The translations under genes and the position numbers were made by a program. From contig NZ_CP069370.1 of assembly GCF_019623905.1 (NCBI RefSeq), positions 3,955,001 to 4,019,000 of the forward strand: a stretch of 64,000 nucleotides of DNA, read 5' to 3'. Positions 31,473 through 59,183 of the stretch are shown here, piece after piece. The stretch is from Neotabrizicola shimadae (GTDB lineage Bacteria; Pseudomonadota; Alphaproteobacteria; Rhodobacterales; Rhodobacteraceae). The number at the start of each line of letters is the position of its first letter. The first letter of the stretch is position 1. The notes under the pieces are model-generated. The model searched no databases, was not told the origin of the DNA, and was given only the letters and a program-made list of their open reading frames with translations.

Positions 31473-31800
31473 TCGATTCGCACGAAAGCGGCCTGCGCGC
31501 ACTTGCCGCACCTTGCCCGCAGGGGCGGAAGCCGGCTTACTTGCGGCGTTGAACCAGGCACTGCTGCGGGGCGATGCGGCATGGGCCGCTTGTTCACGCT
31601 AACGGCGGCCCCAAACTTGCGTGTTAGCGCCCATGTCAACGGCCTTTACAGATTCCTGTGAGGGCCAGTGAATATGTTTACAGAATTATCTATACATAAA
31701 AAAGGGTTAGCCTTCCATTGACGATTGCGCTAGTGTGGCTTCACATCTGCCGGCGTGCATCTTTGCGGCGGCGTTCGAAGTCAGGCACGAGGGGGGAGTC
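31473..31800. other. 328-bp intergenic region carrying the acs promoter
   Basis: Holds the regulated acs promoter block (31635-31746). An interrupted inverted repeat, CGCTAAC (31597-31603) and GTTAGCG (31623-31629), lies just upstream and may be an operator. The DNA is locally AT-richer than its surroundings. No gene was seen. Confidence 0.6.
31635..31746 (+). promoter_or_regulatory. acs promoter block, shared with symporter operon promoter
   Basis: This 112-bp block aligns without gaps to 35063-35174 (70 of 112 identical by hand count). Conserved parts in order are GTCAA, TTTACAGA (31645), GTGAATATGTT then ACAGAA (31668-31684), AAAAA..GGTTAGC, and TTGACGATTGCG (31718-31729). TTGACG is a candidate -35 with a weak -10 (TCACAT) 17 bp on. 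TTTACAG occurs twice with 32-bp spacing, which suggests a tandem regulator site. Confidence 0.7.
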
Positions 31801-33747
<1,947 letters not shown>

Positions 33748-33752
33748 GGTCC

Positions 33753-34427
33753 GTGGCGGGCGGGCAGAGGACCATCCTGATCCTTCTCGGCCCGCCTGGG
33801 GCCGGCAAGGGGACACAGGCGCGGATGCTGGAGGAGGATTTCGGTCTGGTCCAGCTTTCGACTGGCGACCTGCTGCGCGCGGCGGTGGCCGCAGGCACCG
33901 AGGCCGGGCGCAAGGCCAAGGCGGTGATGGAGTCGGGGCAGCTTGTGTCGGACGAGATCGTGCTGGCCGTGCTGAAGGACCGCATGGCCGAGCCGGACGT
34001 GAGCAGGGGGGTGATCCTGGACGGGTTTCCCCGTACGGCGGGCCAGGCGGCGGCGCTGGATGCCCTGTTGGCCGCGGCGGGCGAGGGCGTGACCGCGGCG
34101 GTCAGCCTGGAGGTGGACGACGAGGCGATGGTGGGCCGGGTTTCGGGCCGCTACACCTGCGCCGGCTGCGGAGAAGGCTATCACGACAGCTTCAAGATGC
34201 CGGCGGTGCCGGGGACCTGCGACAAGTGCGGCGGGACCGCGTTCAAGCGGCGGGCTGACGACAATGCCGAGACAGTGCGGGAGAGGCTGCGGGCCTATCA
34301 CTCTCAGACGGCGCCGCTGATTGCCCATTACGACCGGCAGGGGGTGCTGCACCGGGTCGATGCCATGGGGGCCATCGCGGAGATCCGCGCGGCCCTGGGC
34401 GAGATTGTCGGCCGCGTCGCGGCCTGA
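33753..34427 (+). CDS. adk: Adenylate kinase, zinc-lid type
   Basis: A 224-aa enzyme interconverting AMP + ATP and 2 ADP. The P-loop GPPGAGKGT is at residues 13-21, the AMP-binding LSTGDLLRAAVA and DGFPRT follow, and the lid carries four Cys (136, 139, 156, 159; CAGC...CDKC), a zinc-binding lid. GTG at 33753 is the start, with GGTTGAGG just before it. Rhodobacteraceae normally encode another adk beside secY; this copy directly after acs probably handles AMP made during acetate activation. The copy number cannot be checked in this window. Confidence 0.93.
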   Translation: MAGGQRTILILLGPPGAGKGTQARMLEEDFGLVQLSTGDLLRAAVAAGTEAGRKAKAVMESGQLVSDEIVLAVLKDRMAEPDVSRGVILDGFPRTAGQAAALDALLAAAGEGVTAAVSLEVDDEAMVGRVSGRYTCAGCGEGYHDSFKMPAVPGTCDKCGGTAFKRRADDNAETVRERLRAYHSQTAPLIAHYDRQGVLHRVDAMGAIAEIRAALGEIVGRVAA

Positions 34428-35342: not shown

Positions 35343-35597
35343 ATGTCGGACAGGTCGTCAAAGGCCTATTGGGCGGCGAATGTCAGGATCATCCTGATTT
35401 CGCTGGCCGTCTGGTTCCTGTGTTCATTCGGGATGGGCATCATCCTGCGCCCGATGCTGATGGGCATCCACATCGGCGGGGCGGATCTTGGATTCTGGAT
35501 GGCCCAGAACGGGTCGATCTACGTCTTCCTTGTACTGATCTTTGTCTATGCTTGGCGCATGAACAAGGTCGACAAGGAATTCGGCGTCGAAGAGTAA
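35343..35597 (+). CDS. Sodium:solute symporter small subunit (DUF4212)
   Basis: An 84-aa protein of the DUF4212 / Na_symport_sm family. It begins AYWAANVRIILISLAVWFLCSFGMGI (first helix), has the GIHIGGADLGFWMAQNGS linker, a second helix (IYVFLVLIFVYAWRM) and the conserved charged tail NKVDKEFGVEE. It accompanies VC_2705-type sodium:solute symporters and is encoded 15 bp upstream of one here. The ATG at 35343 has a GGAAGGGAGAAG ribosome site. First gene under the acs-like promoter. Confidence 0.93.
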   Translation: MSDRSSKAYWAANVRIILISLAVWFLCSFGMGIILRPMLMGIHIGGADLGFWMAQNGSIYVFLVLIFVYAWRMNKVDKEFGVEE

Positions 35598-35612
35598 GGG
35601 GAACAGTAGAGA

Positions 35613-37532
35613 ATGGATCAGTTTACCCTCAATCTTCTCGTCGTCGGCGCGACCTTCGCGCTGTACATCGGGATCGCGATCTGGGCCCGCGCGGGCTCGA
35701 CCGCCGAGTTCTATGCGGCGGGCCAGGGCGTCCCCCCGGTCATGAACGGCATGGCGACCGGCGCCGACTGGATGTCGGCGGCGTCGTTCATCTCTATGGC
35801 CGGCATCATCGCCTTCGGCGGCTATGAAGCCTCGGCCTATCTGATGGGCTGGACGGGCGGCTATGTGCTGCTGGCGCTTCTGCTTGCGCCCTATCTGCGC
35901 AAGTTCGGCAAGTTCACCGTGCCCGAATTCATCGGTGACCGCTTCTATTCGGGCGGAGCGCGACTGCTGGCCGTGATCTGCCTCATCGTCATCTCTGTCA
36001 CCTACGTGATCGGGCAGATGACCGGGGTGGGCGTGACCTTCGCGCGCTTCCTTGAGGTCTCGACCTCGACCGGCCTGTACATCGGCGCGGCGATCGTCTT
36101 TGCCTATGCGGTTCTGGGCGGCATGAAGGGCATCACCTATACCCAGGTGGCGCAGTATGTCGTCCTGATCGTGGCCTACACCATCCCGGCGCTGTTCATC
36201 TCGCTTCAGCTGACGGGCAACATCCTGCCGCAACTGGGCCTGATCGGCAGCTATGCGCCTTCGGGCGGCGACGTGGCCTTCCTGGCCAAGCTGGATGCGG
36301 TGGTGACGGAACTGGGCTTCAAGGCCTATACCGCCGAAAGCACCAACTACTTCAACATGTTCCTGTTCACCATGTCGCTGATGATCGGCACTGCGGGCCT
36401 GCCCCACGTGATCATCCGCTTCTTTACGGTGCCGAAGGTGTCGGACGCGCGGTCTTCCGCGGGTTGGGCGCTGGTCTTCATCGCGCTTCTGTACACCGTG
36501 GCCCCGGCCGTGGGGTCCATGGCGCGCCTGAACCTGACCACGACCATGTGGCCGAATGCGGTTGCCGGCAAGGCGCTTGAGGGCGATGCTGTCAGCCTGG
36601 CCGACATTGCCAGCAAGCCGGAACTGAGCTGGGTGCAGACTTGGGAAAAGACCGGCCTTCTGGTGATGAAGGACCTGAACGGCGACGGCAAGATCCAGTA
36701 TGTGAACGAGCCGGCACCGCTGGCGGCCAACACCAAGGCCCTTGCTGACGCGACCAAGGCGAAGGACGACGCGAAGATCGCCGAACTGACCGCCGCGCGC
36801 GATCCGATCTTGGCGGAAGCGCAGGTGGGCAATTCGGGCAAGACCTTCGCCGAGATGGGCCTGAAGGGGAACGAACTCATCACCGTGAACAACGACATCA
36901 TGGTGCTGGCGAACCCCGAGATCGCCGATCTTCCGGGCTGGGTTGTGGCCCTTGTTGCAGCCGGTGCGCTGGCCGCGGCGCTTTCGACGGCGGCGGGTCT
37001 TCTGCTGGCGATCTCGTCCGCGATCTCGCACGACCTGATCAAGAGCACGATCAACCCCAACATCTCGGAAAAGGGCGAACTTCTTGCAGCCCGCATCTCG
37101 ATGGCCTTCGCGATTGCGCTGGCGACCTATCTTGGTCTGAACCCGCCCGGATTTGCGGCTCAGACCGTGGCGCTTGCCTTCGGGCTGGCGGCGGCCACGA
37201 TCTTCCCCGCGCTGATGATGGGCATCTTCTCGCACCGGATCAGCAAGGAAGGCGCGATTGCCGGGATGCTGGTGGGCCTGGTGTTCACCGCGAGCTACAT
37301 CTTCGTGTACAAGGGCTGGTTCTTCATCCCCGGCACCAACAACCTGCCGGACACGCCGGACCAGTACTTCTTTGGCATCTCGCCGCTGTCCATCGGCACG
37401 GTTGGCGCCATCCTGAACTTCATTGTCGCCTATGTGGTGTCGATGATGACGGCGGCCCCGCCGAAGCATGTGCAGGACCTGGTGGAATCGATCCGCGTGC
37501 CGAAGGGCGCCGGCAAGGCCCAGGCGCACTGA
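35613..37532 (+). CDS. Sodium:solute symporter, VC_2705 type (acetate permease-like)
   Basis: A 639-aa SSS-family transporter with about 13 helices. Motifs include GQGVPPVMNGMATGADWMSAASFISMAGIIAFGGYEASAYLMGWTGGYVLLALLLAPYLRKFGKFTVPEFIGDRFYS and the sodium-site region AALSTAAGLLLAISSAISHDL. With its DUF4212 partner it matches the VC_2705 subfamily, related to ActP acetate permeases. A soluble insert of about 130 residues (roughly 310-440) holds an EF-hand-like loop, DLNGDGKIQYVN, starting at residue 354. Sharing the acs promoter supports acetate or a short monocarboxylate as substrate; the substrate itself is inferred. Confidence 0.9.
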   Translation: MDQFTLNLLVVGATFALYIGIAIWARAGSTAEFYAAGQGVPPVMNGMATGADWMSAASFISMAGIIAFGGYEASAYLMGWTGGYVLLALLLAPYLRKFGKFTVPEFIGDRFYSGGARLLAVICLIVISVTYVIGQMTGVGVTFARFLEVSTSTGLYIGAAIVFAYAVLGGMKGITYTQVAQYVVLIVAYTIPALFISLQLTGNILPQLGLIGSYAPSGGDVAFLAKLDAVVTELGFKAYTAESTNYFNMFLFTMSLMIGTAGLPHVIIRFFTVPKVSDARSSAGWALVFIALLYTVAPAVGSMARLNLTTTMWPNAVAGKALEGDAVSLADIASKPELSWVQTWEKTGLLVMKDLNGDGKIQYVNEPAPLAANTKALADATKAKDDAKIAELTAARDPILAEAQVGNSGKTFAEMGLKGNELITVNNDIMVLANPEIADLPGWVVALVAAGALAAALSTAAGLLLAISSAISHDLIKSTINPNISEKGELLAARISMAFAIALATYLGLNPPGFAAQTVALAFGLAAATIFPALMMGIFSHRISKEGAIAGMLVGLVFTASYIFVYKGWFFIPGTNNLPDTPDQYFFGISPLSIGTVGAILNFIVAYVVSMMTAAPPKHVQDLVESIRVPKGAGKAQAH

Positions 37533-37543
37533 GACTGACATGG

Positions 37544-37570
37544 CGCGTCCCCGGATCATCCGGGGGCGCG
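37544..37570. terminator. Hairpin between symporter and DUF294 genes
   Basis: An 11-bp stem CGCGTCCCCGG / CCGGGGGCGCG (one G-T pair) with a 5-nt loop, 11 bp after the symporter stop and 22 bp before the next start. With no U-tract it may attenuate and not fully stop transcription. Confidence 0.5.
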
Positions 37571-37592
37571 TCCCCTGTGCCCAGGAGGGACC

Positions 37593-39416
37593 ATGTCTTC
37601 CGAACTGGATACCGTGATCGGATTTCTGGAAACGGTCCATCCCTACGACAGCCTGCCGCGGGACGAACTGGCGCGGGTCGCCGGTTGCTTCAGCCGCAGG
37701 GAGTTCGAGGCCGGCGAAGACGTCTATCGCGCGGGAGAGCCGCTGAAGGGGCTGTACCTGGTCAAGCGCGGCGCGGTCGAGGTGACCGATGCCACGGGCG
37801 AGCTGATCTCGATCCTTGGGCCGCGCAACAGCTTTGGCGAGCGCGGTCTGGCGCGCGACGGGCTGGCCGTGACCAATGCACGCTGCACCGAAGCCTCGGT
37901 CCTGTTGCTGCTGCCTGTGGCCGAGTATCGGCGGCTGGTCTCTTCCGTGCCGGCCTTCGAGCGGTTCTTCAGCCGCGGTCGCGGGGGCGAGGCAAGGTCG
38001 AACGACCTGTCCACGCGCAAGGTCGGCGACCTGATGGCGGTGCCGCCCGTCACGGTGGAGCCGGGGACGAGCCTGAAGGCCGCGGCCGAGATGATGCGCG
38101 CGCGGCATGTCTCCTCGCTTGGCGTGGTGGAGGACGGGGCCTTCCTGGGCATCCTGACCGCCCGCGACCTGGTGCACCGCGTCCTGGCCGAGGGGCTGGA
38201 CCCGGCCTTGCCGGTTGCCGGAGTGTTCACCCGGAACCCGGTGACGCTGGCGCCGGGCGATCTGGGATCGGACATCCTGCATGTCATGCTGGAGCGGCGG
38301 ATCGGCCACCTGCCGGTGGTCGAGAACGGGCGGCTGGTGGGCATGGTCACGCAGACCGACCTGACGCGGTTCCAGGCGGTCAGCTCGGCGCAGCTGGTGC
38401 GCGACGCCGCGCTGGCCGGGACGGTCGAGGAACTGGCGGCCGTGACGGCGCGCATCCCGCGCCTGCTGGTGCAGCTGGTGGGTGGGCACAGCCCGCATGA
38501 GGTGGTGACGCGGTTGATCACCGACGTGGCCGACACGGTGACGCGCCGCCTGCTGGCCCTCGCCGAGGCCGAGCTGGGTCCGGCGCCGGTGCCCTTCGTC
38601 TGGGCCGCCTGCGGCAGCCAGGGCCGGCAAGAGCAGACCGGCGTGAGCGATCAGGACAATTGCCTGATCCTGGACGATACCGCGACCGAGGCCGACATGG
38701 CCTATTTCGCGGCGCTGGCCAAGTTCGTCTCGGACGGGCTGGACGCCTGCGGCTATGTCTATTGCCCCGGCGACATGATGGCGACGAACCCCCGTTGGTG
38801 CCAGCCGCTGAGGGTTTGGCGCGCATATTTCCGCGGCTGGATCGCGACGCCGGACCCCATGGCGCAGATGCTGGCCTCGGTCATGTTTGATCTGCGGGCC
38901 GTTGGCGGCGAAGCGGACCTGTTGCGCGCGTTGCAGGACGAGACGCTGGAGGCTGCGTCGCGCAATTCGATCTTTGTCGCGCATATGGTGGCGAACAGCC
39001 TGAAGCACACCCCGCCCCTGGGGCTGTTGCGCGGCTTTGCGACGATCCGGTCGGGCGAGCACAAGAACCACATCGACATGAAGCACAACGGCGTGGTGCC
39101 GGTGGTTGACCTGGGGCGGGTCTATGCGCTGATCGGGCGGTTCGCGGTGGTGAACACGCGGGCCCGGCTGGAAGCGGCAGAGGCGGCGGGGGTCATCTCG
39201 GCCTCGGGCGCGCAGGACCTGATCGACGCCTATGACCTGATCGCGGCGGCCCGGCTGGAACATCAGGCGGCCGAGGCCCGGGAGGGCCGCAAGCCGGACA
39301 ATTTCCTTGCGCCGACCGAGCTTTCCGACTTTGACCGCAGCCATCTGCGCGACGCCTTCGTTGTGGTGCGCACCATGCAATCCGCCGTGGGCCAGGCCCG
39401 CGGCGCCCGGACCTGA
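37593..39416 (+). CDS. cNMP-binding/CBS/DUF294 nucleotidyltransferase-like protein
   Basis: A 607-aa signalling protein. Residues 1-130 form a cyclic-nucleotide-binding-like domain (FEAGEDVYRAGEPLKGLYLVKRGAVEVTD and GPRNSFGERGL). Residues 145-270 are a CBS pair (VGDLMAVPPVTVEPGTSLKAAAEMMRARHVSSLGVVEDG and the VFTRNPVTLAPGD repeat). A DUF294 GlnD-like nucleotidyltransferase follows, with GSQGRQEQTGVSDQDN at 341-356 keeping the GS and the Asp353/Asp355 pair. A helical DUF294_C domain ends the protein. DUF294 genes commonly sit by acetate permease genes, also in Pseudomonas. The transferred nucleotide and target are unknown; regulation of the symporter is a reasonable guess. Confidence 0.88.
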   Translation: MSSELDTVIGFLETVHPYDSLPRDELARVAGCFSRREFEAGEDVYRAGEPLKGLYLVKRGAVEVTDATGELISILGPRNSFGERGLARDGLAVTNARCTEASVLLLLPVAEYRRLVSSVPAFERFFSRGRGGEARSNDLSTRKVGDLMAVPPVTVEPGTSLKAAAEMMRARHVSSLGVVEDGAFLGILTARDLVHRVLAEGLDPALPVAGVFTRNPVTLAPGDLGSDILHVMLERRIGHLPVVENGRLVGMVTQTDLTRFQAVSSAQLVRDAALAGTVEELAAVTARIPRLLVQLVGGHSPHEVVTRLITDVADTVTRRLLALAEAELGPAPVPFVWAACGSQGRQEQTGVSDQDNCLILDDTATEADMAYFAALAKFVSDGLDACGYVYCPGDMMATNPRWCQPLRVWRAYFRGWIATPDPMAQMLASVMFDLRAVGGEADLLRALQDETLEAASRNSIFVAHMVANSLKHTPPLGLLRGFATIRSGEHKNHIDMKHNGVVPVVDLGRVYALIGRFAVVNTRARLEAAEAAGVISASGAQDLIDAYDLIAAARLEHQAAEAREGRKPDNFLAPTELSDFDRSHLRDAFVVVRTMQSAVGQARGART

Positions 39417-39423
39417 GGCCACC

Positions 39424-39945
39424 ATGGCATATGAACTGATCGGGGCAATCGTGGCGGCCGTCGGCGCGGCCGGGGTGATCCTGCTGCTGAACAAGCTGCT
39501 GGGCGGGCGTCTGCCGCGCTGGCTTGTCCCCACGGCGGCGGGGCTGGCCCTGGTGACGGTGACCATTGTGCTGGAATACGGCTGGTATGGTCGGGTCGTG
39601 AACGGTTTGCCCGAGGGCGTGGATGTGGTTTGGGTGGACCAGACGCCACAACCGTTGCGGCCCTGGACCTTTGCGGTGCCGATGGCGACCCAGGTGATCG
39701 CCGCGGATGGCCGGCAGGTCGCGAAGCACCCGGTCAAGGCAGAGTTGCGGATGCTGCCGCTGTACCGGTTCGCGCGATGGCGTCCGACCGAGCAGGCCGT
39801 GATGGTGGTGGATTGCGCGGGCAGCCGGCACGTCCTGCTGACCGAGGGCGTCGCGATCAGCGATGCGGGTGAGCTTTCCGGCGCCGATTGGGTGCCGGCG
39901 ATGGATGAGATGGGTTACGAGCAGGCGGCCTGCCAGGAGGGTTGA
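39424..39945 (+). CDS. Membrane protein of acetate cluster, unknown
   Basis: A 173-aa protein with two N-terminal helices (LIGAIVAAVGAAGVILLLNKLLGG and LVPTAAGLALVTVTIVLEYGWYG). A soluble domain follows (VNGLPEGVDVVWVDQTPQPLRPWTFAVPMATQVIAADGRQV ... AVMVVDCAGSRHVLLTEG). I do not recognise the family. It lies 7 bp after the DUF294 gene and 1 bp before the receiver gene, so it belongs to the same transcript and may link membrane and signalling parts. Confidence 0.6.
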   Translation: MAYELIGAIVAAVGAAGVILLLNKLLGGRLPRWLVPTAAGLALVTVTIVLEYGWYGRVVNGLPEGVDVVWVDQTPQPLRPWTFAVPMATQVIAADGRQVAKHPVKAELRMLPLYRFARWRPTEQAVMVVDCAGSRHVLLTEGVAISDAGELSGADWVPAMDEMGYEQAACQEG

Positions 39946-39946
39946 G

Positions 39947-40363
39947 ATGGCCGGAGAGGGGAGGAAGCGCCGGATCCTTGTTGTCGAGGACGAGGACAAC
40001 ATCGCCATCGCGCTGGATTTTCTGATGACGCGCGAGGGTTATGAGCATGATCGCGTGGCGAATGGCAGCGAGGCGCTGGCGCGGATTCGGGCAATGCACC
40101 CGGATCTTGTGCTTCTGGACGTGATGCTGCCCGAGGTATCTGGCTACGAGATCTGCCAGGATGTGCGGCTGGACCCGACGCTGAACGACGTGAAGGTGCT
40201 GATGATGACGGCGCGCGGTTCTGCCATCGAGCGGCGCAAGGGGATGGCGCTTGGCGCGGACGGGTTCATCACCAAGCCCTTCGAGCTGAAAGAACTGCGC
40301 GACGAGGTCCGCCGGCTGCTTGGCCCCGGCGAGGCGGAGGGCCGGCCCGCCGGGGCGGGTTGA
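39947..40363 (+). CDS. Single-domain response regulator (receiver only)
   Basis: A 138-aa CheY-type receiver with complete phosphorylation machinery: acidic pair in VVEDED (14-15), phosphoacceptor Asp58 in LLDVMLPEVSG, switch Thr88 in MMTARG and Lys110 in ITKPFELKEL. There is no output domain; a short Gly/Ala tail follows. It lies 1 bp after the membrane protein and 1 bp before the PAS-exonuclease gene, so it is tightly cotranscribed. A CrbR-like acetate regulator would need a DNA-binding domain, which this lacks. Confidence 0.9.
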   Translation: MAGEGRKRRILVVEDEDNIAIALDFLMTREGYEHDRVANGSEALARIRAMHPDLVLLDVMLPEVSGYEICQDVRLDPTLNDVKVLMMTARGSAIERRKGMALGADGFITKPFELKELRDEVRRLLGPGEAEGRPAGAG

Positions 40364-40364
40364 G

Positions 40365-42431
40365 ATGATCGAGCGGCTTGGCCTGCGCCTGAGGGTGCTT
40401 CTGATCTTTGCGGGCCTTCTGGCCGGTGCCCTGGCGGCCCTGGCGGGCGGGCTGTGGCTTGGCTGGTCCAGGCAGGCCGGGGCCGGCGTGGTGCCGACGC
40501 TGGAGCTGGGGGGAATCGCCGCGGGGCTGGTCATCGCGGGGCTGGTGGTCGGGGTCTGGTATCTGTTCGACCTGAACGTGGCGCGGCCGATCGACGCCCT
40601 GGCCTCGGCCCTGCGTGCCCGCGCCCATGCCGATGTGGCCAGTGAGATGGATGGCGAGATCGCGCGCTATCTCGGCGACCTGGCCCCGGCGGCCAGTGCG
40701 GCCGCGCAGCGCCTGGCCGAGACACGCAATGCACTGGCCGAGGCGGTGGCGCGCGAGACGACGCGGCTGGCCGACGAGAAGGCGCGACTGGAGACGCTGC
40801 TTTCGGATGCGCCGGTGGGCGTGGTGCTTTGCACCGGGGCGCATCGGCTGGTGTTCTACAACAGCCAGGCGGTCGATCTGCTGGGCACCGGGGCGGCGCC
40901 GGGGCTGGAGCGCAACCTGTTCGATTACCTGCACGCCGGGCCGATCCGGCTGGCGCACCGGCGCCTGATCGAGGGGGGCGAGCCCGACGCCGCCTCGGAC
41001 CTGCTGTGCACCACGGTGGCCGGGGCGCGGGTGCTGGCGGCGCGGATGCGGCTGCTGGACGAGGGCGGGGCGGAGCCGGGCTATGTGTTGACGCTGCGCG
41101 ACGTGACCTCGGACCTGGCGGCGCTGGCCAGCCGCGAGGCGCTGCTGGCCGAGATGCTGGACCGGATGCGGCGGCCGGCTGCGAACCTCCAGACGCTGTT
41201 GCAGGTGGTGCCCGAGGGCGAGGCGCTGCCGCCCGACCTGGGGGCGGCGGTCCGGCAGGAGGTGGCCGGGCTGGCGGGGGCGGTGCGAGACCTGGGTGCG
41301 CGGCACGAGGCGGGGCGCAGCGAGGGCTGGCCGGTTGCCTTTGTGCGGGGCGCCGATCTGGTGGATGGCCTGCGCGCCCGGATCGCGGCTGCCGGCCTGC
41401 CGGTGATGGCAGAGGCGGCCGAGCTTCTGTTGCGGTGCAACGGGTTCGAGCTGATCGCGCTCATGTCGCGGCTCGCGGGGCATGTGGCGGCGGCGGGGCT
41501 GGCCACGGGCTTTGCCGTAAGCCTGGACGAGGAAGAAGGCGGCGCGATGCTGCGGCTTTCCTGGGAGGGGGCGGCGCTGCCGGTGGGGCGGCTGGACCGC
41601 TGGCTGGCCGAGCCGGTCGATCCCGGCGGGCTGGAGGTTACGGGGCTGGCGATCCTGGCAAGCCACGCGACAGAGGCCTGGCCGGAGAGCCATGGGGGAC
41701 GCGCCTGCATCTGTCTGCCGATCCGCCAGGCCCGCCGCGCGGGGCGGCGGCCGAAGCCGATTGCCCGCGCGGTGGTCTATGATTTCGACCTTCTGTCCAA
41801 GGTCCGCAACGAGAAGGTGGCGGACAGCCGGCTGGAGGACCTGACCTATGTGGTCTTCGACAGCGAGACGACCGGGCTGATGCCGCAGCAGGACGAGATG
41901 GTCCAGCTCGCGGCGGTGCGGATCGTGAACGGGCGGCGGGTCGAGGGGGAGATCTTCGACACGCTGGTGAACCCTGGCCGGCCGATCCCGCCGGCCTCGA
42001 CCGAGGTGCATGGCATCTCGGATGCCATGGTGGCGGATGCGCCGGGGGTGGCCGAGGTGGTGCGGCGGTTCCATGCCTTCGCCGAGGGAGCGGTTCTGAT
42101 TGCCCACAATGCCCCCTTCGACATGGAGTTCCTGAGGCGGGCGGAGTTTGCCATCGGCAAGCGGTTCGACAATCCGATCCTGGACACGGTGCTTCTTTCG
42201 GCGGTGGTCTATGGCCAGACCGAGGTTCATTCGCTGGACGCATTGACCCACCGGCTGGGGATCACCATCCCCGAGGAGGCGCGGCATACGGCCATCGGGG
42301 ATACGGTGGCCACGGCGGATGCCTTCCTGAAGTTGGTCCAGATCCTGAAGGCGCGGGGGATCGGAACCTTTGGCGAGGTCCTGACCGAGGTGCGCCGGCA
42401 TGGCCGGTTGATGAAGGATCTGAACGGCTGA
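40365..42431 (+). CDS. Membrane PAS/sensor-like protein fused to DEDDh 3'-5' exonuclease
   Basis: A 688-aa fusion. Two N-terminal helices (about 10-35 and 45-66) frame a very short periplasmic loop. A HAMP-like and coiled segment (NVARPIDALASALRARA) is followed by a PAS-like domain near 145-260 (LLSDAPVGVVLCTGAHRLVFYNSQAVDLLG). Residues 260-465 resemble a histidine-kinase body, but no phosphoacceptor His box or N/G boxes are evident. The C-terminal 200 residues are a DnaQ/PolC-type exonuclease with a full set: Asp499 and Glu501 (VVFDSETTGL), Asp586 (IAHNAPFDMEF), His641 and Asp646 (RHTAIGDTVAT). An exonuclease gene beside DUF294 and the permease is a recurring arrangement; its substrate is unknown. 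Confidence 0.88.
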   Translation: MIERLGLRLRVLLIFAGLLAGALAALAGGLWLGWSRQAGAGVVPTLELGGIAAGLVIAGLVVGVWYLFDLNVARPIDALASALRARAHADVASEMDGEIARYLGDLAPAASAAAQRLAETRNALAEAVARETTRLADEKARLETLLSDAPVGVVLCTGAHRLVFYNSQAVDLLGTGAAPGLERNLFDYLHAGPIRLAHRRLIEGGEPDAASDLLCTTVAGARVLAARMRLLDEGGAEPGYVLTLRDVTSDLAALASREALLAEMLDRMRRPAANLQTLLQVVPEGEALPPDLGAAVRQEVAGLAGAVRDLGARHEAGRSEGWPVAFVRGADLVDGLRARIAAAGLPVMAEAAELLLRCNGFELIALMSRLAGHVAAAGLATGFAVSLDEEEGGAMLRLSWEGAALPVGRLDRWLAEPVDPGGLEVTGLAILASHATEAWPESHGGRACICLPIRQARRAGRRPKPIARAVVYDFDLLSKVRNEKVADSRLEDLTYVVFDSETTGLMPQQDEMVQLAAVRIVNGRRVEGEIFDTLVNPGRPIPPASTEVHGISDAMVADAPGVAEVVRRFHAFAEGAVLIAHNAPFDMEFLRRAEFAIGKRFDNPILDTVLLSAVVYGQTEVHSLDALTHRLGITIPEEARHTAIGDTVATADAFLKLVQILKARGIGTFGEVLTEVRRHGRLMKDLNG

Positions 42432-58325: not shown

Positions 58326-59183
58326 CTAGCGCCCGGCGTTCCAGCTGATCGAGGCGTGCCGGCGGGTGTAGAATTCGCCCATCAACCCCACGACGATGCA
58401 GGCGAGCGTGACATAGACCGGGTAGCTGATCGAGGTTACGCGCGGGCTGTAGTTCAGGAAGATGAAGCCGCGCGCCTGGTCGATGGTGTGGAACAAGGGG
58501 TTCCAGATGAAGAAGGGCAGGAGGTGCGAGGGCAGATTGTTGGCCAGGAACATCTTGCCCGAGCCGATGATGTTGGCCCGGTTGTAGACCTGGCTGACCA
58601 CGCCGAAGAGATCGGGTTGCCAGGGCATGGCGGCCTTGAACACCATGCCGATTGCCGCGCCCGACGCCCAAGCCAGCAGGAACATCGCCATCGCGCCGAC
58701 GGGTTCGTGGATCGAGATCGGCTGGAAGGCCACGTCATAGACGAAGAGGATCACCGCTGCAGACAGCACCTGAAGGTAGAGCGAGCCAAGCGCTGCGGCG
58801 CAGATGGCGACCAGCGGGTTCATGGGGCCGTGCTTCATCATGGCCGAGGTCGGACCATCGGACCGGACCACCGCCCCCATTGCCTTTGAATGGGTCATGA
58901 ACAGGAAGACGCCCGACATGATGAACAGGAGGAAGTCGCCGCGCACCTTGTTCTGCCGCATCCCGAGGAAATCGAGCATGAAGTAGAACACCGCGATCAT
59001 CAGCACCGACTGGAAGATCGCGAGGAGGAGACCGATCACCGCATTGCCATGCGATTTGCGGACATGGCGCACCGAGGCATGGAAGATCAGTTCCAGAAGC
59101 GCAAAGGCGCTGCCGATGCCGGTCTGCTTTCTTTCCACGCGAAACATGGGCGGCTCGATCCTCGGGCGGGCGGAGGGCTGCAT
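58326..59183 (-). CDS. ABC-2 type polysaccharide export permease
   Basis: A 285-aa inner-membrane permease of the KpsM/Wzm type with about six helices, for example NAVIGLLLAIFQSVLMIAVFYFML and LACIVVGLMGEFYTRR. PLVAICAAALGSLYLQVLSAAVILFVYDVAFQPI and FIWNPLFHTIDQARGFIFLNYSP are typical of polysaccharide exporters. The first about 25 residues are basic and cytoplasmic. No ATP-binding partner gene is in the window. It diverges from the cysQ-kdsB group, which suggests a shared surface-polysaccharide role. An internal Met at 59147 is an alternative start. Confidence 0.85.
   Translation of the reverse strand: MQPSARPRIEPPMFRVERKQTGIGSAFALLELIFHASVRHVRKSHGNAVIGLLLAIFQSVLMIAVFYFMLDFLGMRQNKVRGDFLLFIMSGVFLFMTHSKAMGAVVRSDGPTSAMMKHGPMNPLVAICAAALGSLYLQVLSAAVILFVYDVAFQPISIHEPVGAMAMFLLAWASGAAIGMVFKAAMPWQPDLFGVVSQVYNRANIIGSGKMFLANNLPSHLLPFFIWNPLFHTIDQARGFIFLNYSPRVTSISYPVYVTLACIVVGLMGEFYTRRHASISWNAGR

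Follow-up and report, generated by a model that had tools for sequence, protein, structure and literature searches.

A predicted pseudo-histidine kinase core precedes a DEDDh exonuclease and co-occurs with an orphan receiver gene in an acetate-use gene cluster

Gene organization of the locus

The window (the whole stretch of 64,000 nucleotides that was analysed, from Neotabrizicola shimadae) contains genes in the order acetyl-CoA synthetase (acs), adenylate kinase, DUF4212 protein, symporter, DUF294 protein, small membrane-like protein, receiver and exonuclease gene (Table 1). The adenylate kinase could recycle AMP from acetyl-CoA synthetase. The exonuclease gene encodes a protein of 688 residues, and its ATG is located 1 base past the TGA of the receiver gene.

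Table 1 Features of the locus, with positions in the window and residue numbers of the 688-residue protein.
Feature	Position	Strand	Details	Evidence
Acetyl-CoA synthetase	31798..33747	+		AMP-binding 1.4e-89, ACAS_N
Adenylate kinase	33588-34427	+	Directly after acs	Pfam ADK 1.8e-38
DUF4212 symporter small subunit	35343..35597	+	Start approximate	PF13937 2.7e-33, TIGR03647
VC_2705-family sodium/solute symporter	35613..37532	+		TIGR03648, 813.9 bits
cNMP-binding, two CBS and DUF294 nucleotidyltransferase domains	37593..39416	+	GS...DQD motif present	
Small membrane-like protein	39424..39945	+	No known family	
Orphan response-regulator receiver	39947..40363	+	No output domain; phospho-acceptor Asp58, Thr88, Lys110	PF00072 1.3e-26
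Sensor-like membrane protein, predicted pseudo-histidine kinase core and DEDDh exonuclease	40365..42431	+	688 aa	
TM helix 1	40389..40466	+	Residues ~9-34	Hydropathy (9-30); model helix 7-35
TM helix 2	40500..40574	+	Residues ~46-70; then HAMP-like helices to ~120	Hydropathy, model
PAS domain	40782..41105	+	Residues 140-247	Pfam PAS_8, model
Predicted pseudo-DHp helical hairpin	41106..41318	+	Residues 248-318; Asp266 in place of His; R269/P271 kept	
Predicted pseudo-CA (HATPase fold)	41340..41738	+	Residues 326-458; Trp400 in place of G1-box Asp	
Conserved YDFDL linker motif	41778..41792	+	Residues 472-476, directly before the exonuclease	
Predicted DEDDh 3'-5' exonuclease domain	41844..42353	+	Residues 494-663; D499, E501, D586, H641, D646 intact	

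Of the 125 loci from the window's family, 122 have a DUF294 gene no more than 3 kb from the exonuclease gene, 116 the symporter at up to 7 kb and 104 acs at up to 9 kb, compared with 25, 14 and 7 of the 35 loci from other families at the same distances; all of these counts are limited by contig and stretch ends. Most of the family's loci encode the small membrane-like protein between the DUF294 gene and the receiver or exonuclease gene. Among the 20 stretches around phylum-level matches, 6 (L229–L233 and L238) carry acs, symporter, DUF294, receiver and exonuclease together. A 1437-residue antisense open frame (35424-39737, minus strand) that spans the symporter and DUF294 genes is probably a shadow ORF driven by G+C content. 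At 58435-58584 on the plus strand, Rfam matched Cis2_sRNA (RF02645) with 52.5 bits, barely over the gathering score of 50.

Domain layout and the exonuclease domain

The original prediction was of a sensor-like membrane protein, and this is borne out by two hydrophobic segments and by a PAS domain above the Pfam cut-off (PAS_8, residues 140–191, E = 1.3e-4, 22.2 bits against 21.8). While the PAS-like assignment is upheld by this match, the HAMP-like label remains weak because Pfam gave no HAMP match at E ≤ 1 in the 688-residue protein; one relative (L115) showed a weak match with an E-value of 0.13. The full-length model of the protein reached a pTM of just 0.53.

The C-terminal part was matched by Pfam RNase_T over residues 496–654 (E = 9.7e-39). 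The five DEDDh catalytic residues, at the positions predicted originally, are intact in all 161 aligned rows, drawn from the window and 160 loci. The nearest solved relatives by sequence are PolC exonucleases (2p1j, E = 9.3e-29), and structure alignment of the model also placed PolC as the nearest fold (Z = 24.8). On the basis of the D-E-D-H-D residues and the fold, the 688-residue protein is predicted to have 3'-5' exonuclease activity. It shares the fold and all five catalytic residues with DnaQ/PolC-type DEDDh exonucleases (2p1j, 9qpc) but differs from them in lacking a polymerase part and in being fused to a membrane sensor. A role as a replicative proofreading subunit was judged unlikely in view of the sensor fusion and of a second exonuclease-like ORF in the same genome (open frame 236, G000:C1:3524083; 35% identity over the exonuclease domain).

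The closest solved sequences and folds, PolC, DnaQ epsilon, ExoX, DinG and RNase T, are enzymes acting on polymers, which speaks against a small linear dinucleotide, arising as the breakdown product of a messenger, as the substrate. Such a substrate would be in keeping with the membership of oligoribonuclease in the DEDDh fold and with the cyclic-nucleotide-binding domain of the DUF294 protein of the operon, but no cyclic-dinucleotide enzyme was found among the 8 operon proteins scanned by Pfam, and we consider this reading very unlikely. The PADLOC models DEDDh and PDC-S48 also match the exonuclease domain and would suit an anti-phage nuclease. These matches, however, are confined to the exonuclease domain and leave the rest of the protein uncovered, and in the window's family the locus belongs to a conserved cluster of metabolic genes; the anti-phage reading was rejected as exceedingly improbable.

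Fold of the middle region

Pfam identified no domain at E ≤ 1 between the PAS and RNase_T matches of the 688-residue protein and no HisKA or HATPase match in that protein, and neither was among the 22 families listed in a Pfam scan of 61 kinase-body fragments (window plus 60 relatives). Weak HisKA matches were obtained in three of six full-length distant relatives scanned (E = 0.0019 to 0.022), together with a weak HATPase_c match in one full-length distant relative (E = 0.05). A profile search with the kinase body against PDB sequences placed CpxA and ZraS first, at an E-value of 0.09, with unrelated chains appearing from 0.22.

Since all of the matches listed by VIA-align for the full model sit on the exonuclease part, the middle region (residues 246–462) was folded by itself, with 60 relatives out of the 79 extracted (L033–L111) as AlphaFold2 input. 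The resulting model (pLDDT 87.4) pairs a long helical hairpin with an alpha/beta sandwich. The 50 Foldseek matches listed were all histidine kinases or proteins bearing their core, such as LvrB; the top listed match was the HK853-RR468 complex (8.2e-10), DivL (PDB 4q20) ranked ninth (3.0e-9), and the matches to HK853-RR468, LvrB, CusS and DivL had E-values of 8e-10 to 9e-9. Whole-model TM-scores against histidine kinases were just 0.37–0.47, with a large rmsd, probably because the DHp and CA parts differ in orientation. Taken by itself, the CA part aligned with PrrB (Z = 14.2, 2.7 Å, 131 residues) and with DivL (Z = 12.3, 3.1 Å, 126 residues). In addition, hhalign of the middle region against a profile of histidine kinases from the same genome, built from ~11 of 19 HisKA loci (those with the H-box motif and >200 residues), gave a probability of 97.9 over 211 columns, the E-value being that of a single template.

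These models predict that the middle region adopts a DHp-CA histidine-kinase fold that is complete in shape. The resemblance to a decayed kinase body that had been noticed from the sequence is real, as the AlphaFold2/Foldseek match, the hhalign probability of 97.9 and the lost catalytic residues described below indicate. Contrary to what had been supposed, the exonuclease does not replace the kinase core but follows a predicted DHp-CA fold with near-fixed residues of its own. Structure prediction, which had been suggested as a check on this region, returned a kinase core that is complete in shape; its catalytic residues are gone.

Loss of kinase residues

Counts of kinase-body residues cover 111 rows, from the window and 110 loci. 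The position of the phospho-acceptor His is occupied by Asp in 78 rows and Glu in 24 (D/E 102/111; Asp266 in the window) and by other residues in the rest, and no His lies within two columns of this site in any of the 111 rows. The N-box Asn is gone in 108 rows and kept in 3, with His373 at this position in the window, and an Asn anywhere in the N-box helix (residues 364–377) was found in only 10 of the 111. The G1-box Asp is replaced by Trp in 110 rows and retained in none. Near-fixed residues of the pseudokinase also include Gly402 (110/111), Glu299 (108/111) and Trp413 (106/111). The near-fixation of Trp400, Gly402 and Glu299 suggests that the body is constrained even without the normal kinase residues, and the absence of the phospho-acceptor His together with the replacement of the G1 Asp by Trp argues for a retained pseudokinase.

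A functional histidine kinase carrying an extra exonuclease domain would be consistent with the predicted retention of the DHp-CA fold. The state of all three sites contradicts it, and we rejected this reading as almost certainly wrong. Judged from its residues, the kinase core is present and predicted to be dead, not replaced.

Distribution and other layouts

Named relatives from another collection are nearly all Rhodobacteraceae, which is taken to be the window's family. At the order level (196 genomes, all of the window's family, with loci retrieved from part of the short-type genomes), we found full-length forms as well as shorter ones without the kinase body. At the class level, 25 of 289 genomes matched at E ≤ 1e-30, three of them in the window's family, including the window's own genome. 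At the phylum level (299 genomes, with the exonuclease part as query), proteins of ~700 residues were found in another class, presumably the Gammaproteobacteria, where they are ~50% identical in the exonuclease part, and six that were inspected have a similar kinase body that likewise lacks the His. The pseudokinase-exonuclease is a family that recurs across the class and another class, and not a one-off. Loci L032–L111 were sampled by peptide patterns, some taken from the kinase body, which biases this set toward full-length forms. Two loci, L032 (labelled Exiguobacterium profundum) and L106 (Caenispirillum salinarum), are Rhodobacteraceae-like and perhaps mislabelled or contaminated; in L032 the upstream DUF294 and symporter genes were not found.

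The exonuclease also occurs in other layouts. It follows the TM-PAS part in L118–L121 (the PAS domain of L118 being assigned by alignment, not by Pfam), a TM segment only in L122 and L124 (by eye), and no such N-terminal part in L127. This retention in relatives without the kinase body indicates that the kinase body is unneeded for the core job of the exonuclease. In L125 and L126, an EamA-like transporter and then an exonuclease of the same kind form one open frame (Pfam for L125 only).

Co-occurrence of the receiver gene with the DHp hairpin

A receiver in the table of 160 loci was defined as a same-strand ORF of at least 60 residues with a profile match at E ≤ 1e-4, no further than 2.5 kb ahead of where the open frame begins, so that receivers encoded elsewhere are uncounted; L186 and L189 were left out because their upstream DNA is missing. 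DHp hairpins of 60 residues or more were classed as full and those of 37–53 residues as shortened. Of the 112 loci with CA and a full DHp, 110 have a receiver ORF upstream, against none of the 39 loci without the pseudokinase and 1 of the 7 loci with CA but a shortened DHp (L174), which amounts to 110/112 with a full DHp versus 1/46 for all others. Outside the window's family, the corresponding counts are 19/21 and 0/12. The exceptions L178 and L237 keep the DHp with no adjacent receiver. The link to the receiver at 39947, raised in the original prediction, is therefore backed by gene co-occurrence over 160 loci. Loci in which the DHp is short and the receiver absent, with the CA remnant and exonuclease staying, fit docking on the DHp. 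That the dead kinase body tracks with the receiver gene points to control of a nuclease by a phosphorylation signal in an acetate-use cluster.

Receiver residues were examined for matches among the first 140 loci, with L228–L247 left out. The phospho-acceptor Asp is present in 97 of 98 rows (window plus 97 loci), as is the Lys. The L165 receiver is missing the phospho-acceptor Asp, and that of L174, which lies beside a shortened DHp hairpin, is degenerate, with the acid pocket and Thr lost. These two receivers are decaying in place.

For the exonuclease-only tree, 158 rows were reduced to 95 by an 85% identity cut-off applied within each state, and the sensor-plus-exonuclease tree comprised 80 of those 95, after 15 long-branched, divergent or PAS-poor rows including L237 were dropped; L178 was kept. 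On the 80-row tree, there were four DHp changes and four REC changes, and the joint changes on starred branches were those of the family's short clade, the DHp-short clade and L184/L185, next to which L178 is placed. Three independent pairs on starred branches were available on this tree: the receiver followed the DHp in 1.8 on average, never went in the opposite direction and showed no difference in 1.2, and with just three pairs a sign test is unable to reach 0.05. The exonuclease-only tree gave 7 and 8 changes, with just 2–3 pairs on starred branches. Joint DHp/receiver changes with tree support number just two or three, and because the root was not inferred, loss and gain of the DHp or receiver are indistinguishable on these trees.

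Covariation between REC and DHp (mutual information, 109 paired rows, Neff 67) gave scattered top pairs and was not significant at the expected interface (mean Z = 0.32, reached by 6% of 17,000 shifted controls). This result, together with the layouts in which the exonuclease is kept with a TM segment only, with TM-PAS or with neither, would be compatible with a pseudokinase and PAS domain that merely anchor or dimerise a constitutively active exonuclease beside the symporter, while the receiver acts elsewhere in the operon. However, neither the near-fixed Trp400, Gly402 and Glu299 nor the linkage to the receiver gene is expected of a mere spacer, and we judge this reading unlikely, if still worth weighing.

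Discussion

We regard it as moderately probable that a DivL-type pseudokinase reads the upstream receiver and gates the DEDDh exonuclease within an acetate/monocarboxylate uptake programme. The 688-residue protein would be a membrane-anchored PAS sensor whose kinase core has turned into a DivL-type pseudokinase, with a DEDDh 3'-5' exonuclease as the output of the sensor. The orphan receiver at 39947 would obtain its phosphate elsewhere. A candidate donor is an 897-residue histidine kinase of the same genome (G000:C1:1015539-1018232; L273 3040-5733), in which Pfam found HisKA and HATPase_c intact; its N-terminal half matches symporters weakly, below the threshold, and it is perhaps of the CrbS/RpuS kind, CrbS being a kinase that governs acetate use in other bacteria. 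The phosphorylation state of the receiver would be read through docking on the dead DHp hairpin, and docking together with PAS/TM input would shift the dimer conformation and so set exonuclease activity. The target would be DNA or RNA, serving the uptake programme represented by acs, the symporter and the DUF294 nucleotidyltransferase. Receiver docking, allosteric gating, the substrate and the kinase of the receiver are proposed steps, and direct binding of the phosphorylated receiver to the DHp is putative, by analogy with DivL.

In the available part of the report on DivL of Caulobacter (PMC4211667), this pseudo-histidine kinase binds phosphorylated DivK with the help of its PAS domains, and DivL often has no DHp-CA in lineages that lack DivK. 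The 688-residue protein resembles DivL (PDB 4q20) in its PAS input, in a predicted DHp-CA without the phospho-acceptor His and in structural match, and also in having a single-domain receiver as putative partner and in the absence of DHp-CA where the receiver is missing, as the same part of that report describes for DivL (PMC4211667). The two differ in that DivL reportedly keeps its other kinase boxes and works via the kinase CckA, whereas the 688-residue protein lacks the N-box Asn and G1 Asp and carries a DEDDh exonuclease after the CA.

An operon that may be related exists in pseudomonads. The accessible text of PMC9927547 describes pp_0353 (RNase_T exonuclease) and pp_0354 (CBS-domain protein) of P. 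putida as an operon that is a target of MxtR/ErdR; deletion of pp_0353 slowed the onset of growth on pyruvate without an effect on acetate, deletion of pp_0354 had no effect on either, and the authors speculate on mRNA degradation by pp_0353. Pflu5625 of P. fluorescens, with cAMP-binding, CBS and nucleotidyltransferase domains, reportedly gave no phenotype, according to an extract of PMC5715377. Judging by domains and neighbourhood, pp_0353, pp_0354 and Pflu5625 may be related to the window's genes. The PP_0353/PP_0354 pair shares with the window an operon of an RNase_T exonuclease and a CBS protein, which adjoins actP in other pseudomonads, but the same text mentions no TM, PAS or kinase body for PP_0353 (PMC9927547). 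The CrbS/MxtR SSS-histidine kinases are likewise part of acetate-linked two-component signalling, and such a kinase may exist here; they differ in being active kinases with a symporter-like sensor and, in that portion of the source, no described nuclease (PMC9927547). In the excerpted data of PMC9765439, which name no nuclease, PA3232-PA3235 are up with propionate as growth substrate, and PA3233-PA3235 are down upon propionate addition.

Receiver-reading pseudo-histidine kinases are already known from DivL. A full-text literature search, with most subscription journals beyond its reach, returned no description of a receiver-linked pseudokinase with a nuclease output. If the gated-exonuclease reading is right, phosphorylation signalling would be coupled directly with the trimming of nucleic acids, in a form present in two classes of one phylum, and a function would be at hand for genes known mainly by domain (DUF294, exonuclease and orphan receiver). 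The co-occurrence pattern of receiver and DHp renders the docking idea directly testable.

Natural fusions connect the exonuclease with its DUF294 neighbour: L130 and L135 are exonuclease-CBS-DUF294 fusions (CBS domains by Pfam), and L243–L246 have exonuclease and DUF294 matches within one open frame. The pairing of the two genes and these fusions suggest that their products write and erase one nucleotide tag. In this reading, the DUF294 nucleotidyltransferase would add a nucleotide tail or tag to an RNA or protein of acetate metabolism and the receiver-switched pseudokinase exonuclease would remove it, an idea that we put forward tentatively and hold to be rather improbable. If true, it would describe a two-component-like system whose output is nucleotide removal instead of transcription. 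A second DUF294 gene is present in the same genome (L274, G000:C1:855677-858237), next to a symporter-like frame that scores below the TIGR03648 cut-off.
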